From positions 62,001 to 126,000 of the forward strand of contig JAPLTX010000051.1 of NCBI GenBank assembly GCA_026397915.1: DNA of 64,000 nucleotides, read 5' to 3'. Made by a program: the position numbers and the translations under genes. The notes under the pieces are model-generated. The model searched no databases and was not told where the DNA came from. It saw nothing but the letters and a program-made list of their open reading frames with translations. This DNA is from Verrucomicrobiota bacterium (GTDB taxonomy: Bacteria > Verrucomicrobiota > Verrucomicrobiia > CAIQCK01). Below, in pieces: positions 15,242 through 50,836 of the stretch. Within the stretch, counting starts at the first letter, position 1. The number at the start of each line of letters is the position of its first letter.

Positions 15242-15943
15242 GTGGCCGAAACGCTGGTCGTCAACGAAATCTTCAAGAGCATCCAGGGCGAGAGCACCCG
15301 CGCTGGCCTGCCGTGCGTTTTTGTCCGCCTTGCCGGCTGTAACCTGCGCTGTTCCTGGTGCGACACCGCCTACGCTTTCACCGAAGGCGCGCGGATGACG
15401 CTCGACAAGATCGTGGACCGCGTCGCCGCGTTCGACTGCAACCTCGTCGAGTTGACCGGCGGAGAACCGTTGATGCGCTCCAACTCGCTGCTGCTCATGA
15501 CGCAACTCGCCGATCGCGGCCATACCGTCTTGCTGGAAACCGGCGGCTCGCTCGACATCGGTCCGATGGACCCGCGCGTCATCCGCATCATGGACCTGAA
15601 ATGCCCCAGCAGCGGCGAGTGCGAGCAGAACCGCTGGGAGAATATCCCGCTGCTGCGCGCCAACGACGAGGTGAAATTCGTCATCGCCACGCGCGAGGAC
15701 TACGACTGGGCCAGACGGCAACTTGAACGCTGGCATCTGCCGGCCATCTGCACCGTGCTCTTCTCGTGGGCACATCCGCTGCCGCCGGAACAACGCGACA
15801 TGACGCTGAAGCCCATGCCGCCGGACCAACATCCAATCACCATGCGCGAATTGGTCGAGCAGATGCTTGCCGACAAACTGTCGGTCCGGTTCCAGCTCCA
15901 GATGCATAAATATGTCTGGGAACCGACAGCGAGAGGAGTGTAA
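15242..15943 (+). CDS. queE: 7-carboxy-7-deazaguanine synthase
   Basis: FKSIQGESTRAGLPCVFVRLAGCNLRCSWCDTAYAF radical SAM CxxxCxxC motif. Confidence 0.93.
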   Translation: MAETLVVNEIFKSIQGESTRAGLPCVFVRLAGCNLRCSWCDTAYAFTEGARMTLDKIVDRVAAFDCNLVELTGGEPLMRSNSLLLMTQLADRGHTVLLETGGSLDIGPMDPRVIRIMDLKCPSSGECEQNRWENIPLLRANDEVKFVIATREDYDWARRQLERWHLPAICTVLFSWAHPLPPEQRDMTLKPMPPDQHPITMRELVEQMLADKLSVRFQLQMHKYVWEPTARGV

Positions 15944-17181
15944 TGCTGCCTCTTCTCAAAACCCGCATCCCCGGTCCGCGCTCACGCGCGCTTTCTCGCC
16001 AGCTTCGCCGGCACGAGTGCCGCAACACGACATTTGTCAGTGCCGACTGGCCAATCTTCTGGGAGCGCGCACGCGGCTGCAATGTCTGGGATGCCGACGG
16101 CAACCGCTACCTCGACCTGACCGCCGCGTTCGGCGTCGCCAGCGTCGGCCACAACAACCCGCGCGTTACCGCCGCCGCCCGCGTCCAACTCAGCCGCCTC
16201 GTCCATGCGATGGGCGACGTGCATCCAAACGAGTTGAAGGTCCGGCTCGCGACTGAGCTTTCCGCTCTCACGTTCGACCGCTGGCTCCGCAAATCAGAAA
16301 TCATAAATCATAAATCTAAAATCCTCTTCTCCAATTCCGGCTCCGAGGCCGTCGAAGCCGCGCTGAAGACCGCCATACTCGCCACCGGCAAGCCCGGTGT
16401 CATCGCCTTCGTCGGCGCCTACCACGGTCTGACCTACGGCGCGCTCGACGCAACGGCGTGGAACTACTTCCGCGCACCGTTCCATCCGCAACTGCCCGGT
16501 TTCACCGTCCACAGCGCGCCAACCGAATCGGCCGTGCGCGCCGCCTTCGAGCAAAGCGAGCGAGGTATCGGCGCGGTCATCGTCGAACCGATCCTCGGTC
16601 GCGGCGGCATCGTGGTGCCGCCGCCCGATTTTCTGCCAATGCTCCGCCGCGTCTGCGACGAACACCGTGCGCTGCTCATCGCCGACGAAATCTACACGGG
16701 CTTCTGCCGCACGGGCCGATGGTTTGCCGTCGAGCATTGGGGTGTCGTGCCCGACCTCATCTGTGTCGGCAAAGCCATGAGTAACGGCTTCCCGATCTCT
16801 GCCTGTATTGGCCGCGCCGACGTGATGGACGCATGGCCCGAAAGCGCCGGCGAAGCTCTCCACACCAGCACGCACCTCGGCAACCCGCTCGGCTGCGCAA
16901 TGGCGCTCGCCGCCATCGACGAAATGAAACGGCTGAAACTCGACGAGCACGCCTGCCGGCTGCAAGACCGCCTGCCCGGCCGCGGCCTCGGCTTGATGAA
17001 AGGCGTCGAGTTGCCAAACGCGACCGCCTGCCAGCGCGCCGTCAAGCGCCTGTTGCGCCGCGGCATCATCGCCCTCGGCGGCGGCGAGCGCGGCAACGTG
17101 CTCACGTTGACGCCGCCACTGACGATCTCGGAGGGAGAACTGGAGTTTACGGCGAAAGAAATTGTCCGTGCAACAAAGTGA
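15943..17181 (+). CDS. Class III (PLP) aminotransferase
   Basis: LFSNSGSEAVEAALKTA, VGAYHGLTYG, LLIADEIYTGFCRTG, GKAMSNGFPISACIG. Confidence 0.9.
   Translation: MLPLLKTRIPGPRSRALSRQLRRHECRNTTFVSADWPIFWERARGCNVWDADGNRYLDLTAAFGVASVGHNNPRVTAAARVQLSRLVHAMGDVHPNELKVRLATELSALTFDRWLRKSEIINHKSKILFSNSGSEAVEAALKTAILATGKPGVIAFVGAYHGLTYGALDATAWNYFRAPFHPQLPGFTVHSAPTESAVRAAFEQSERGIGAVIVEPILGRGGIVVPPPDFLPMLRRVCDEHRALLIADEIYTGFCRTGRWFAVEHWGVVPDLICVGKAMSNGFPISACIGRADVMDAWPESAGEALHTSTHLGNPLGCAMALAAIDEMKRLKLDEHACRLQDRLPGRGLGLMKGVELPNATACQRAVKRLLRRGIIALGGGERGNVLTLTPPLTISEGELEFTAKEIVRATK
16292..16324 (+). repeat. Heptamer array AATCAGA/AATCATA/AATCATA/AATCTAA inside the aminotransferase gene
   Basis: Direct 7-bp periodicity; encodes RKSEIINHKSKI in frame. 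Confidence 0.85.
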
Positions 17182-20513: not shown

Positions 20514-21644
20514 ATGAAAACCGCGCGAAAGACAACTTATCTGCCCGCCCCGAAGTCTCCGTCCGCCGGAGAACTCGACGCGCGCATTCTCAACCTCATC
20601 GCCCGCGGCGTCGAGCATCGCTGCCCCGACGCGGGGTTTGACTCGCTCGCTTTGGCGCTCTTCCGCCACCAGTTCGCGCTAAACCGGCCCTATCGCCGCT
20701 ACTGCGAGTCGCTCAGCCGCAGCCCGCGCAACGTCGCGCACTGGAAGCAGATTCCCGCCATTCCAACGACCGCGTTCAAGAACGCCAATCTGACGACGCT
20801 CACGCCGAAACAACGCACCACCGTCTTCCACAGCAGCGGCACCACCGAACACCGTCCCAGCCGCCATTTTCACAACGCGGCGACGCTGGCGCTCTACGAG
20901 GCGGCGTTGTGGCCGATGTTCGCTGGGCGGGTGACGAGTGGCGAGTGGCGAACGGCAAGAAATTGTCAGCTTGTGATTCTCACGCCCACGCTCGCCGAAG
21001 CACCACATTCCTCGCTGGTCCACATGATGGAAACCGTCCGCCGCCGCCGGCAAGCGCCGCCGTCGGTTTTTGTTGGCGCCGCCGCGTTGGAGAATGGCCG
21101 CGCGCTTGCTACGGCAGTTCAATCCAAAATCCAAAATCCAAAATCCAAAGTCCTCCTACTTGGCACCGCCTTCGCCTTCGTCCGGCTGTTCGACGCGATA
21201 ACCACTGCGCCGCGTCAGGGACGCGGCCTACAGTTGCCACCCGGATCACGCGTGATGGAAACCGGCGGTTACAAGGGCCGCACGCGCGAAGTGCCGCGCA
21301 AGGAGCTTCACGCGCTCATCTCCGCCAAGCTCGGAGTGCCGCGCACGGCCATCGTTAGCGAATACGGCATGTGCGAGCTGTCGTCGCAGTTCTATGCAGC
21401 TTCCCAGTCCGCAGTCTTCCACGGCCCACCTTGGACTCGTGTGCGGCTTATCAACCCCGAAACCGACCGCGAGGCGCGCGAGGGCGAGCGCGGCCTCATC
21501 CGCATTTTTGACCTCGCCAACCGCGCTTCAGTCATCGCGATCCAAACCGAGGACATCGGCGTGCGCCGCGGTGACGGCTTCGAGTTGCTCGGCCGCGCAC
21601 CCCAAGCGGAAGCGCGAGGATGCTCGCTCATGGTGCCGTTATGA
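20514..21644 (+). CDS. LuxE-like acyl-protein synthetase
   Basis: RTTVFHSSGTTEHRPSRHFH, VMETGGYKGRTREVPRKEL, SEYGMCELSSQFY. Confidence 0.82.
   Translation: MKTARKTTYLPAPKSPSAGELDARILNLIARGVEHRCPDAGFDSLALALFRHQFALNRPYRRYCESLSRSPRNVAHWKQIPAIPTTAFKNANLTTLTPKQRTTVFHSSGTTEHRPSRHFHNAATLALYEAALWPMFAGRVTSGEWRTARNCQLVILTPTLAEAPHSSLVHMMETVRRRRQAPPSVFVGAAALENGRALATAVQSKIQNPKSKVLLLGTAFAFVRLFDAITTAPRQGRGLQLPPGSRVMETGGYKGRTREVPRKELHALISAKLGVPRTAIVSEYGMCELSSQFYAASQSAVFHGPPWTRVRLINPETDREAREGERGLIRIFDLANRASVIAIQTEDIGVRRGDGFELLGRAPQAEARGCSLMVPL
20931..20958 (+). repeat. Heptamer array GTGACGA/GTGGCGA/GTGGCGA/ACGGCAA in luxE-like gene
   Basis: 7-bp periodicity read directly; in frame (RVTSGEWRTAR). Confidence 0.7.
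21121..21148 (+). repeat. Heptamer array (AATCCAA)x4 in luxE-like gene
   Basis: Four perfect 7-bp units, encoding QSKIQNPKSKV in frame. Confidence 0.95.
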
Positions 21645-22702: not shown

Positions 22703-23100
22703 AAGTTGAATTGATCAAGGATTTCACGTTCGAGGCGGCGCACGCGCTGCCGAAGGCGCCGAAGGGCCACAAATGCGCCCGGCTGCACGGACACAGTTTC
22801 AAGATCGAAGTGCATGTGGCCGGCACCGTGGACGAGAAGCGCGGCTGGCTGGTGGATTACGGCGAGATCAGCCATGCGTTCCGGCCTGTGTATGAGCAGC
22901 TTGACCATTATTATCTGAACGAGGTGCCCGGTCTGGAGAACCCGACAAGCGAGGTCTTGGCGCGTTGGATCTGGAAGCAACTGAAGCCGGTGCTGCCGAA
23001 GTTGAGCGCCATCGTCGTGCAGGAAACCTGCACGGCGCGTTGCGTGTATCGCGGCAAGCAGGCCAGACACTCTTGTCTGGCCTTGTCCAACTCTGTTTGA
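22699..23100 (+). CDS. queD: 6-carboxy-5,6,7,8-tetrahydropterin synthase
   Basis: [43 protein letters not shown]-like region; ATGA overlap with luxC-like gene. Confidence 0.9.
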
Positions 23101-23131
23101 GATTATCCCAGCCAGACAGGAGTGTCTGGCC
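23061..23131. repeat. Two palindromic arms in inverted orientation (GGCCAGACACTCTTGTCTGGCC ... GCCAGACAGGAGTGTCTGGCC)
   Basis: Left arm 23061-23082, right arm 23111-23131; each arm self-complementary and the arms complementary to each other. Confidence 0.85.
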
Positions 23132-23137
23132 TACGAC

Positions 23138-24095
23138 ATGAGCGACGTCATCTTGCGGCTGGAGCAAGTGGAAAAGCATTTCGGCGCGACCGCTGCGGTC
23201 AACGGTATCACGCTCGACATCGCGCGTGGCGAGTTTTTCGCGCTGTTGGGACCGAGCGGTTGCGGCAAGACGACGCTGCTACGGCTGGTGGCGGGCTTCG
23301 AGCAACCGGATGCAGGGCGTGTCATTCTCGACGGCACGAACGTGGCCGGCGTGCCTGCAAACGAGCGGCCCGTGAACACCGTCTTCCAGCACTACGCGCT
23401 GTTTCCTCACCTCACAGTCGCCGACAACGTTGCGTTCGGCCTCCGTTACCAATCCAAAATCCAAAATCGAAGAGATGTTGAAGCTGGTGCGCATGGAGGG
23501 ACTTGGCGGGCGCATGCCGGACCAACTCAGCGGCGGGCAGAAGCAGCGCGTGGCGTTGGCACGGGCACTGACCCTGCATCCGAAGGTGTTGTTGCTCGAC
23601 GAACCGCTCGCGGCGCTCGACGTGAAGCTGCGCAAGGAGATGCAGGTGGAGCTGAAAGCGCTCCAGCGGCGCGTGGGCATCACGTTCATCTTCGTCACGC
23701 ACGATCAGGAGGAAGCGTTGACGCTGGCCGACCGGGTGGCGGTGATGAATCTTGGCAAGATCGAGCAGGTCGGCACGACGGAAGAGGTTTTCGAGCGGCC
23801 GCGGACAAAGTTCGTCGCGGACTTCATGGGCGCGGTTAATTTCCTCAACGGCTTCGTCGTGCGGCCGGAGAAGATGCGGTTACGGGTAACGGCCGCCGGG
23901 GACGCGGTCGAGGGGAAGGTTGAGAGCAAAGTGTATCAGGGCGAAACGACGCGCTGGCTGGTGCGCACAGCGGACGGGAAGCTGCTCACGGTCGTCGAGC
24001 AGAACGACGGCGTGCCCGATGCCGTGTCGCGATTGCGCGAGGGCGACGCTGTGTGGGTGAATTGGGAGAAACGACACGAAGTGCCGCTGCAATGA
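23138..24095 (+). pseudogene. potA: PotA-like spermidine/putrescine ABC transporter ATPase, split by a frameshift
   Basis: Walker [21 protein letters not shown] in the frame starting 23138; [41 protein letters not shown] in the frame of the 23430..24095 ORF; switch at about 23450-23470. Confidence 0.85.
23451..23471 (+). repeat. Heptamer array AATCCAA/AATCCAA/AATCGAA at the potA frameshift
   Basis: 7-bp periodicity; coincides with the frame switch. Confidence 0.85.
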
Positions 24096-24964
24096 AATCT
24101 CGTTCCGCACTCCGCACTCCGCACTCCGCTTTTCTTCTCATCTCACCGACGTGGCTTGTGCTGGGGCTGCTGTTTCTTGCGCCGCTGGCGATTATGCTGT
24201 GGCTGAGTTTTCAGCAGCGCGGGCTTTATGGCGGGATTGAGCCGGGGCCGACGCTGGCAAACTATGTCCGCAGTTTCGAGTCCGGCTACACCATCATCTA
24301 TGCGCGCTCGGTGTGGATTGCGGTGGCGACGACGATGACCTGCCTGCTGGTGAGCTATCCGGTGGCTTACTACATCGCCTTGAAGGCGCGGCCGGAGCGG
24401 AAGAGCTTGCTGCTCGCGCTGGTGGTGATTCCGTTCTGGACGAGTTTCCTGGTGCGGACCTATGCGTGGATGTTCATCTTGCGCGACCAGGGCGTGATCA
24501 ACTCGTTGTTGATGTCGCTCGGCATCATCCACGAGCCGCTACCGCTGCTCTACACGCCACTGGCGGTGATGATCGGGCAGGTCTATGCCGAGGTGCCGTT
24601 CATGGTGCTGCCCATCTACGCGTCGTTGGAGAAGCTCGACCGCTCGCTGCTGGAGGCAGCGCGCGACCTCGGCGCGGGCGCGGCGGCGGCGTTCTGGCGC
24701 GTGACGGTGCCGTTGGCGATGCCGGGAACCGTGGCGGGTATCGTGCTGGTGTTCATTCCAAGTCTCGGCACGTTCATCACACCCGACCTGCTCGGTGGTG
24801 CGAAGGGAATGCTTGTGGGCAATCTCATCCAGAACCAGTTTGGCCCGGCGCTGAACAAACCGTTTGGCAGCGCGGTGGCGATGACACTGACGGCGTTTGT
24901 GCTGGCGCTGCTGTGGGCGTATGCGGGCTGGGCGCGGCGGCGAGGCGAGGAGGTGGCGTTGTGA
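24092..24964 (+). CDS. potB: Spermidine/putrescine ABC transporter permease
   Basis: TM permease; [28 protein letters not shown] loop; ATGA overlap with potA. Confidence 0.9.
24102..24129 (+). repeat. Heptamer array GTTCCGC/(ACTCCGC)x3 at potB N-terminus
   Basis: 7-bp periodicity; encodes SALRTPHSA. Confidence 0.9.
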
Positions 24965-25734
24965 AACGTGGAGCGCCGATGCTGCGAGCGGTGACGTGGG
25001 TTGTGTATGCGTTTCTCTACGCGCCGATTGCGGTGCTGGTGGTGTTCTCGTTCAACTCGGAGCGGCAGACGGCGATTTGGAAACACTTCACGCTGGATTG
25101 GTATCGCGTGTTGTTCCGGGACGAACTGATCGGCCACGCGGTGGTGAACAGCTTGATCGTCGGTGTGATGGCGACGGTCGTGGCGACGGTGATCGGGACG
25201 ATGGCAGGGCTGGCGCTGGCGCGGCATGAGTTCCGCGGCAAACGGGCGACAATGTCGCTGCTCTACCTGCCGGTGATTGTGCCAGAGATCGTGGTCGGCG
25301 CAGCGTTGGTGAGTTTGTTCGGGTTCATCGCGATGCGGCTGAGCCTGACGACGGTGATTCTGGCGCACATCGCGTTCAGCATCAGCTATGTGGCTCTGGT
25401 GGTGCGGGCGCGGCTGGCGGGGTTTGATCGGTCGTTGGAGGAAGCAGCGATGGATCTCGGCGCAAACCGCTGGCAGACGTTCTGGCGCGTGACGCTGCCG
25501 CTCATCGCGCCGGGTGTGCTTGCGGGAGCGTTGCTGGTGTTCACACTTTCCATTGATGACTACATCATCACGTCGTTTGTGGCGGGGCCGGGCGCGACGA
25601 CGCTGCCGTTGCAAATCTACTCGATGGTGAAGACTGGCGTGACGCCGGAGATCAACGCGGTGTCCACGTTGCTGCTGGTGGTGACGATTGGCTTGATTGC
25701 GGCGGCACAGCGGCTAGAAACTTCGAAGCGATGA
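24961..25734 (+). CDS. potC: Spermidine/putrescine ABC transporter permease
   Basis: EEAAMDLGANRWQTFWRVTLPLIAPG; GTG start overlaps potB stop. Confidence 0.9.
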   Translation: MKRGAPMLRAVTWVVYAFLYAPIAVLVVFSFNSERQTAIWKHFTLDWYRVLFRDELIGHAVVNSLIVGVMATVVATVIGTMAGLALARHEFRGKRATMSLLYLPVIVPEIVVGAALVSLFGFIAMRLSLTTVILAHIAFSISYVALVVRARLAGFDRSLEEAAMDLGANRWQTFWRVTLPLIAPGVLAGALLVFTLSIDDYIITSFVAGPGATTLPLQIYSMVKTGVTPEINAVSTLLLVVTIGLIAAAQRLETSKR

Positions 25735-26756
25735 AACGATTCATTGCGCTTTGCGTGCTCCTGACACTGCTCGGCTGCGGTGGCAAGGACGATGGCAAAC
25801 GGCTCAACGTCTATATCTGGACCAATTACATCACGCAGGAGCTGCTGAGCCAGTTCACGGCGCAGACGGGTATCAGGGTCAAATTCGACGTTTACGATTC
25901 GAACGAGGCGGTGCTGGAGAAGTTGGCGTCGGGCGCAAGCGATTACGACATTGTGGTGCCGACGGATTACATGGTGCGCATCCTAGTCAAGCAGGGACTA
26001 CTGGTGCCGCTCGACCGCTCGAAGCTGACGAACCTCGCCAACATCACGCCGAAGTTCCGCGATCTGCCGTTCGACCCGGGCAACCGCCACAGCGTGCCGT
26101 ATCTGTGGGGCACGACCGGTTTCGCCTACAACAAGGCAAAGGTTGGCAAGGCGCTGGACAGTTGGGTGGCGGTGTTCGACGAGCGGTGGAAAGGGCGCGT
26201 GCTGATGCTCGACGACATGCGGGAGTGTTTTGGCGTTGCGCTGCGGGTGCTCGGCTACTCAGCGAACTCAACCAATGTTTCCGAGTTGGCCGCTGCGCGC
26301 GACCTGTTGGTGAAACAAAAGCCGCTGGTGAAAACCTACAACTCGTCAGACTTCGCCGGCATCCTGCGCAGCGGCGACGTGTGGATTGCCCACGGCTACA
26401 ACGGCGAGTTGGCCAAGGCGTGCGACGAGGACAAGAACCTCGCCTACGTGATTCCGAAGGAAGGTTGCACGGTGTGGGTGGACAACCTCTGCATTCCGAA
26501 AAGCGCGCGGCATGTCGAAGCGGCGCACGCGTTCATCAACTACATGCTGGAAGGAAAGAACATCGGGGCGGTGGTCAACGCGATGAGTTACGCCTGTGCG
26601 AACGACGCGGCGCGGCCATTCATCAAGCCGGCGTTGCTCGCCGATCCGACGCGTTATCCGGACGAGGCGGCGCTAAAGCGGTGCAATCTTCTCGGCGACC
26701 TCGGCGAAAGCCTGCAACTCCGCGACCGCTACTGGACCGAGGTCAAGGCGAAGTAA
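25731..26756 (+). CDS. potD: Spermidine/putrescine-binding lipoprotein
   Basis: Lipobox LLGC; LNVYIWTNYITQELLSQFTAQTGIRVKFDVYDSNEAVLEKL. Confidence 0.92.
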   Translation: MKRFIALCVLLTLLGCGGKDDGKRLNVYIWTNYITQELLSQFTAQTGIRVKFDVYDSNEAVLEKLASGASDYDIVVPTDYMVRILVKQGLLVPLDRSKLTNLANITPKFRDLPFDPGNRHSVPYLWGTTGFAYNKAKVGKALDSWVAVFDERWKGRVLMLDDMRECFGVALRVLGYSANSTNVSELAAARDLLVKQKPLVKTYNSSDFAGILRSGDVWIAHGYNGELAKACDEDKNLAYVIPKEGCTVWVDNLCIPKSARHVEAAHAFINYMLEGKNIGAVVNAMSYACANDAARPFIKPALLADPTRYPDEAALKRCNLLGDLGESLQLRDRYWTEVKAK

Positions 26757-32832: not shown

Positions 32833-33729
<897 letters not shown>

Positions 33730-33734
33730 GAACG

Positions 33735-34823
33735 ATGAAACCACGTCCACCAACACCCGCAGCCCTTGGCTACCGCATGCCGGCGGAGTGGGAGCCGCAC
33801 GAAGCGACATGGCTGACGTGGCCCCGCGGAGCGGGCGCGAGTTTCCCCGGCAAGTTCGGGCCGGTCCCGGCTTATTGGGTGAAACTGGCCGAGTTGCTCA
33901 GTCCGCACGAGCTGGTCCGCATCGTCGTCCACGACGAGGCACACGAGGAGAAAGTCCGCCGTCTCCTCTCTGCATCCAAAAAGCTCCGCCGCGAGCGTGT
34001 TTCCCTCCATCGCTTCGGCTGCAACGAATGCTGGTGCCGTGACCACGGGCCGATCTTTGTTGTCCGAAAATCAGAAATCAGAAATCAGAAATCAGAAATC
34101 GCTGTCCTCGACTGGCGCTACAACGCCTGGGGCGGCAAGTATCCCCCGTGGAACCTCGACGACGCCATCCGGCGGCGCGCCGCGCAAACTCTCGGCCTGC
34201 CGCTGCTCCCGCCGGGTATGGTGCTCGAAGGCGGTTCCATTGACGTTAACGGACACGGCACGGTGCTCACCACCGAGTCCGTTATGCTCAACAAAAACCG
34301 CAATCCACGCCTCACAAAACGCCAGATCGAGCAGCGTCTCCGCGACTACCTCGGCGTGACCAACATTCTTTGGCTCGGCGATGGCATCGCCGGCGACGAC
34401 ACCGACGGCCACGTGGACGACATCACACGTTTTGTCGGCCCGCGCACGGTCGTCACCTGCGTCGAGGACGATCCCGCCGACGAGAACCACGCGCCGCTGC
34501 ACGACAACCTGAAACGCCTCCGTGCGATGCGCGACCAGGATGGCCGGCCGCTGCGCGTCATCGAGTTGCCCATGCCCGGCCGGCTCGAAGGCCGTGGCCA
34601 GCGCCTGCCCGCCAGCTACGCCAACTTCTACATCGCCAACGACGTGGTCCTCGTGCCGGTTTACTCGCACCGAAACGACAAGCGCGCGACGGCCATCCTC
34701 CAACGATGTTTCCCGAAGCGTCGTGTCATCGCTATCGAATGCACCGACCTCGTCTGGGGCCTCGGCGCGCTGCACTGCGTCACGCAACAGCAACCGCGAG
34801 CTACCTGGCCGGCCGCGCACTGA
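33735..34823 (+). CDS. aguA: Agmatine deiminase
   Basis: MPAEWEPHEATWLTWP, CNECWCRDHGPIFV, WRYNAWGGKYPPWNLDD, GLGALHCVTQQQP. Confidence 0.93.
   Translation: MKPRPPTPAALGYRMPAEWEPHEATWLTWPRGAGASFPGKFGPVPAYWVKLAELLSPHELVRIVVHDEAHEEKVRRLLSASKKLRRERVSLHRFGCNECWCRDHGPIFVVRKSEIRNQKSEIAVLDWRYNAWGGKYPPWNLDDAIRRRAAQTLGLPLLPPGMVLEGGSIDVNGHGTVLTTESVMLNKNRNPRLTKRQIEQRLRDYLGVTNILWLGDGIAGDDTDGHVDDITRFVGPRTVVTCVEDDPADENHAPLHDNLKRLRAMRDQDGRPLRVIELPMPGRLEGRGQRLPASYANFYIANDVVLVPVYSHRNDKRATAILQRCFPKRRVIAIECTDLVWGLGALHCVTQQQPRATWPAAH
34069..34100 (+). repeat. Heptamer array (AATCAGA)x4 in aguA
   Basis: Four perfect 7-bp units encoding RKSEIRNQKSEI in frame. Confidence 0.95.
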
Positions 34824-50751: not shown

Positions 50752-50836
50752 ATTTTGGATTTTGGATTGCCGATTTTGGATTGCCGCAGAAGGCAGTCCT
50801 CAATCCAAAATCCAGAATCTAAAATCCAAAATCGAA
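50752..50836. repeat. Inverted heptamer pair: ATTTTGG/ATTTTGG/ATTGCCG/ATTTTGG/ATTGCCG and AATCCAA/AATCCAG/AATCTAA/AATCCAA/AATCGAA
   Basis: 7-bp periodicity in both arms (50752-50786 and 50802-50836); the ATG of the next gene is at 50836. Confidence 0.92.

Follow-up and report, generated by a model that had tools for sequence, protein, structure and literature searches.

Results

The window that we analysed, a 64,000-nucleotide stretch (positions 62001-126000 of contig 7) of the 6.17 Mb, 62-contig genome G000, carries the genes of a PotABCD polyamine transporter (Table 1). The best NCBIfam matches are, in order, PotA (for both halves of the gene), PotB, PotC and PotD, all of them below the curated cut-offs, and the PDB chains closest to the PotA orthologue of the related genome G001 are those of PotA in 8zx1 and 8y5f. 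As an earlier note on this DNA had supposed, potB, potC and potD are intact; they align to four relatives without a stop. In potA, which extends from 23138 to 24095, the coding sequence is divided between two frames. The frame of the ATG at 23138 encodes Walker A and the Q-loop, continues as RRDVEAG... and remains open until a stop ending at 23839, and the signature/Walker B half occupies an open +1 frame from 23430 to 24095. Both the open reading frames and the codon-usage scores switch exactly at the heptamer array at 23451-23471, so that the array-borne frameshift described in the earlier note is real. Five relatives encode an ATPase whose single chain contains Walker A, signature and Walker B; potA of the window does not. 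The arithmetic of the earlier note is also right: since 7 mod 3 = 1, taking away one unit or adding two restores a continuous frame. The biologically right form is the one with two units added, which has the exact length found in three relatives (QSKIQNPESRIEE, QSKIQNSESRIEE and KSEIRNQKSDIDE).

Table 1. The pot operon and in-gene heptamer arrays of the window (window coordinates)
Feature	Position	Strand	Remarks
AAATCAT array, class-III aminotransferase gene (15943-17181)	16298..16316	+	In frame
AATCCAA array, luxE-like gene	21121..21149	+	29 bp; in frame
5' part of potA (Walker A, Q-loop half)	23138..23450	+	In frame from ATG to FGLRY; NCBIfam NF006987 (PotA), E 2.6e-46; dN/dS 0.05-0.08 against relatives
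Heptamer array AATCCAA-AATCCAA-AATCGAA in potA	23451..23471	+	Perfect over 18 bp, with a degenerate third unit; the +1 frame change occurs here; three relatives have 14 bp more
3' part of potA (LSGGQ signature, Walker B, H-loop, C-terminal domain)	23472..24095	+	Open in +1 frame; TIGR01187 potA, E 1.2e-66; codon scores
potB	24092..24964	+	Intact; ACTCCGC heptamer array within the N-terminal codons (24104-24129)
potC	24961..25734	+	Intact
potD	25731..26756	+	Intact
AAATCAG array, agmatine deiminase gene (33735-34823)	34068..34100	+	In frame; length-differing stretch against PDB 1xkn

Two further features of the neighbourhood may be mentioned. Genes for N-carbamoylputrescine amidase and agmatine deiminase (32833-34823) lie about 6 kb from potD, which makes this a polyamine neighbourhood. 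Directly upstream of the potA start, two copies of the palindrome GCCAGACACTC(T/C)TGTCTGGC occupy 23062-23130, and the peptide preceding the ATG in G001, G002 and G006 suggests a similar palindrome element in those genomes.

What did the potA array look like before the frame was lost? We compared the site in five relatives, of which G001, G002 and G003 belong to the same genus and G005 and G006 to the same family; their C-terminal halves of PotA are 85-89% identical to that of the window. Alignment to these orthologues, the check that the earlier note had suggested, gives a single open frame through the site in all five. Relative to the window, the site is longer by 14 bp in G001, G002 and G006 and by 17 bp in G003, and G005, which has no array there, is 9 bp beyond the +14 class. 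All five lengths thus equal that of the window plus 14 bp modulo 3, and the window allele disagrees. The site reads FGLRYGKPKIENPKSSIEE in G003 and FGLRYKSEIRNQKSDIDE in G006. The arrays of the relatives are in frame and mostly interrupted by substitutions, with the exception of the pure array of G006 (four AAATCAG units), and when the in-frame G001 protein is aligned to E. coli PotA (8y5f/8zx1), a single-residue gap falls at the array site. A scan of the genome contigs found only distant PotA homologues (39-65%). Because the lengths agree modulo 3 among the relatives and the window departs from them, we read the window allele as the ancestral in-frame array minus two heptamers.

The split gene and its operon retain the marks of purifying selection. 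The dN/dS of both parts of potA in G000 is about 0.05-0.15 (0.09-0.15 for the C-terminal part) and resembles that of the relatives and of potB, potC and potD. The C-terminal part carries six lineage-specific replacements in G000 versus 3-10 in the other genomes; those specific to G000 at sites conserved in the others are K16M, I35T, F126L and D127N. Comparison with the relatives revealed no second disabling change in potA, potB, potC or potD. Since neither dN/dS nor the replacements show a clear relaxation, either the break is young or other alleles exist beside that of the window; the absence of decay would also suit a gene that is in frame only part of the time.

The potA array belongs to a large set. 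With at most one mismatch, AATCCAAAATCCAA occurs nine times in the window versus 0.00 times in shuffles, and 43 times in the genome versus none for the reversed pattern, an excess that places the potA array beyond chance. In 1.23 Mb of G000, a count of runs of 18 or more matched bases gave 21 at period 7, four at period 21 and otherwise one at periods 3-20, which is the period-7 excess of over-represented heptanucleotide SSRs. The AATC-core arrays in the same 1.23 Mb show no bias towards intergenic DNA: 17 of 24 lie in frame inside genes. The only in-gene array out of frame is that of potA (17 to 1; p about 1e-7 against one third in frame), and AATC is on the sense strand in 17 of the 17 in-frame arrays (p 1.5e-5). 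Two other candidates for a frame-changing array, at 50802 in the window and at C28:60049 in G002, both proved to lie at gene junctions. The pattern of four AATC at 7-base spacing occurs 42 times in G000 and is absent from the reversed control; AATC spaced every 6 or 8 bases gave no case in the genus. Of 286 genomes of the class, 129 contain this 7-spaced pattern, as do 5 of the 50 genomes to which scattered PotA homologues led. In genus g5, where G008, G125 and G138 were compared together with sister genomes, these three genomes have 33-150 AATC arrays and most others have none, which indicates very patchy gain or loss.

Where in proteins do the arrays fall? The in-gene arrays, most of them with an A(A/C)TC core, lie in protein loops. 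Besides the aminotransferase, luxE-like protein and agmatine deiminase, the array-bearing proteins include a MutL-like and a RimO-like protein (the names MutL, RimO and luxE were assigned by eye) and several related proteins of contig 25. In each alignment to a homologue of solved structure, the two proteins differ in length over the stretch that contains the array. Read in the sense direction, the units encode hydrophilic heptapeptides (NPKSKIQ, NQKSEIR and NPQSAIR), and the antisense translations are hydrophobic for the most part or are interrupted by stops. The frame and strand preference of the in-gene arrays would be accounted for by selection acting on the protein. We rejected the idea that the AATC core itself is favoured through stop avoidance, as 37 of 64 AATCNNN units are stop-free in the sense direction versus 69% of all heptamers. 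Four related proteins on contig 25 of G000 (at about 21.8, 34.9, 41.9 and 45.8 kb) carry near-identical AATCCAA arrays in the corresponding loop, the array peptides being ESKIQNPKSKI or QSKIQNPKSKI ahead of [YFL]LDLG. Elsewhere in the luxE-like gene, a loop at 20935-20951 holds an unrelated filler in each species, all of them 18 bp longer than in the window and some containing hairpin repeats.

The units themselves differ between species. The potA unit is AATCCAA in G000, AATCCAG in G001, a mixture of AATTCAG and AATCCAG in G002, and AAATCAG in G006, and the unit of the luxE-like loop is AATCCAA in the window, ACTCCGC in G001, AATCCAA in G002 and AATCCGC in G003. The frame is kept through the unit changes in both genes, and in several cases so are the exact length and the AATC register; for example, the potA sites of G001 and G006 align without gaps and with AATC in register. 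At the other in-gene sites compared, between-species length differences are multiples of three. In approximate arrays, variation at the four core positions is about half as frequent as at the remaining three (51/760 versus 83/570), a count that may be biased by the grouping of arrays by core.

Discussion

How was potA broken? We propose that it is a recently broken gene, produced when an in-frame heptamer array contracted by two units, and we consider this probable, in a judgement that is based on one genome's assembly and that counts the chance of an assembly or sequencing error against it. The earlier note had already raised the possibility of a recent break, and both the in-frame relatives and the lack of any sign of long decay support it. 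Between its Q-loop region and the LSGGQ motif, PotA has a stretch that tolerates changes in length, and there the ancestor of this genus, and probably that of a sister genus, would already have had an in-frame array. In the window lineage two units (14 bp) would then have been lost, most likely through slipped-strand mispairing, which would shift the frame of the signature/Walker B half and leave a truncated PotA that lacks a complete ATP-binding cassette and has presumably lost its function. The direction and number of slippage steps are those suggested by parsimony across the aligned sites, and the window allele is presumably fixed or common in its population.

Could the two units instead have been lost in assembly or base-calling, from a potA array that is truly in frame? 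Every relative is in frame, the remaining gene and operon are under purifying selection, and G000 is a 62-contig draft and the one genome of its species that was compared, points that speak for such an artefact. However, perfect heptamer runs of 31-34 bp were assembled elsewhere in G000, so that a collapse of the potA array is not expected, and the ancestral array of about 35 bp would be shorter than common read lengths, as these are generally known. Moreover, when 69 orthologous proteins were used as queries on the contig, an internal frameshift came up in potA alone (a second flag, near 32.8 kb, is the junction of neighbouring genes), so that indel errors are rare. We regard an artefact as unlikely, while granting it some weight in the estimate given above for a recent break.

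The earlier note put forward as a candidate a phase-variable switch, in which the copy number of the array reversibly toggles PotA in the population. Part of this proposal stands. Copy number does cause the frame change, and within the potA ORF each 7-bp unit gained or lost shifts the frame, as a length change does at contingency loci. The array is also pure over 18 bp, the downstream half of potA is free of decay, and phase variation by heptanucleotides is known elsewhere. In H. influenzae hmw1A and hmw2A, for example, the unit is likewise 7 bp long and its copy number can alter expression, but there 13-38 copies stand in the promoters of surface adhesins (PMC2651432), whereas the potA array has just 2.6 perfect copies, lies in a transporter ATPase gene and falls short of the long, pure, hypermutable tract of a contingency locus. 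A polyamine transporter ATPase is no surface structure and would be an atypical contingency gene. The potA arrays of the relatives are always in frame and mostly interrupted. Furthermore, switching genes would often be caught out of frame, and the ratio of 17:1 in frame among the in-gene AATC-core arrays of G000 therefore argues against a general switch. For the heptamers of Xanthomonas and Nostoc, too, phase variation was judged unlikely, with general-metabolism genes dominating (PMC4692102). The switch is thus unsupported, and we hold it to be very improbable.

An old loss of potA, with the whole operon decaying, can draw on the few replacements specific to G000 (K16M, I35T, F126L and D127N), but dN/dS in both potA halves, and likewise in potB, potC and potD, is close to that of the relatives, and with no second disabling change seen in these genes we give this history very little credence. 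Recoding, by which +1 ribosomal frameshifting or transcriptional slippage would link the two potA halves and account for the conservation that persists in both, was rejected as a rescue of potA and seems highly improbable, since the junction has neither a stop codon nor a known +1 shift site, the zero frame stays open for ~120 more codons, the longest A-run is four, and the relatives need no shift.

The probable recent break in potA leads to a broader question, namely what kind of repeat these arrays are. A tentative idea, which we regard as possible but rather doubtful, is that A(A/C)TC-core arrays form one recurrent repeat class present in several phyla, which here invades protein loops and is refreshed inside them, so that units change and the frame is kept. 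Rickettsia palindromic elements provide a precedent for in-gene, in-frame repeats tolerated in many unrelated proteins. Unlike these elements, the arrays described here are non-palindromic and represent no fixed element, being built of a short tandem unit that varies between species.

Closer in sequence are the heptanucleotide SSRs of Xanthomonas (GGGAATC) and Nostoc/Anabaena (GGGGA(T/C)T), in which the 7-bp period is likewise over-represented genome-wide, many arrays have near four units, and position is kept while sequence and length are altered between related species (PMC4692102). Rotated, and for Nostoc reverse complemented, their units read AATCGGG and A(A/G)TCCCC, which resemble the AATC core of the present arrays. 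Those arrays, however, lie for the most part between genes, are rich in G and are under-represented on the coding strand of ORFs, whereas those of G000 are A+C-rich, mostly in-gene and in frame, and sense in 17 of 17 in-frame cases. Similarly, the repeats in the P6b element of the Nostoc/Calothrix tRNA-Leu(UAA) intron fall into Class I (TDNGATT) and Class II (NNTGAGT), the reverse complements of which, AATCNHA and ACTCANN, are the two cores observed here, and the repeat class at one site has been repeatedly replaced in evolution (PMC4476775). Those repeats lie in an RNA stem-loop of a group I intron, whereas the potA array of G000 lies in a protein gene. We found no paper stating that Xanthomonas, Nostoc and the present arrays have a core in common, in a search mainly of the open literature, and the likeness is drawn from our own data; nor did we find literature on heptanucleotide repeats in Verrucomicrobia or on the repeat strings or peptide. 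Heptamer arrays are a known kind of repeat, of which we have not found the in-gene version described.

Taken alone, potA is a minor example of a frameshift carried by a repeat, in a transporter gene for which relatives still show the ancestral length of the site. The over-representation of heptamers in bacteria is without an accepted reason, and in-frame arrays in conserved proteins, their units at a given loop differing between sister species, offer a natural experiment on how arrays originate, change their units and break genes. If a recurrent invading class does exist, it would imply a mutational or recombination process with a sequence preference rather than plain polymerase slippage, and its price would be that genes such as potA are broken at a steady rate when the copy number slips. 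A practical caution is that heptapeptides such as NPKSKIQ, NQKSEIR and NPQSAIR, when met in predicted proteins, can represent repeat filler. Finally, we note that two opposed heptamer arrays between two genes of the window (50752-50836) would form a strong hairpin (-42.1 kcal/mol, z -6.8), and that opposed AATC arrays about 44 bp apart are also found in G003 (C71:19077-19145).
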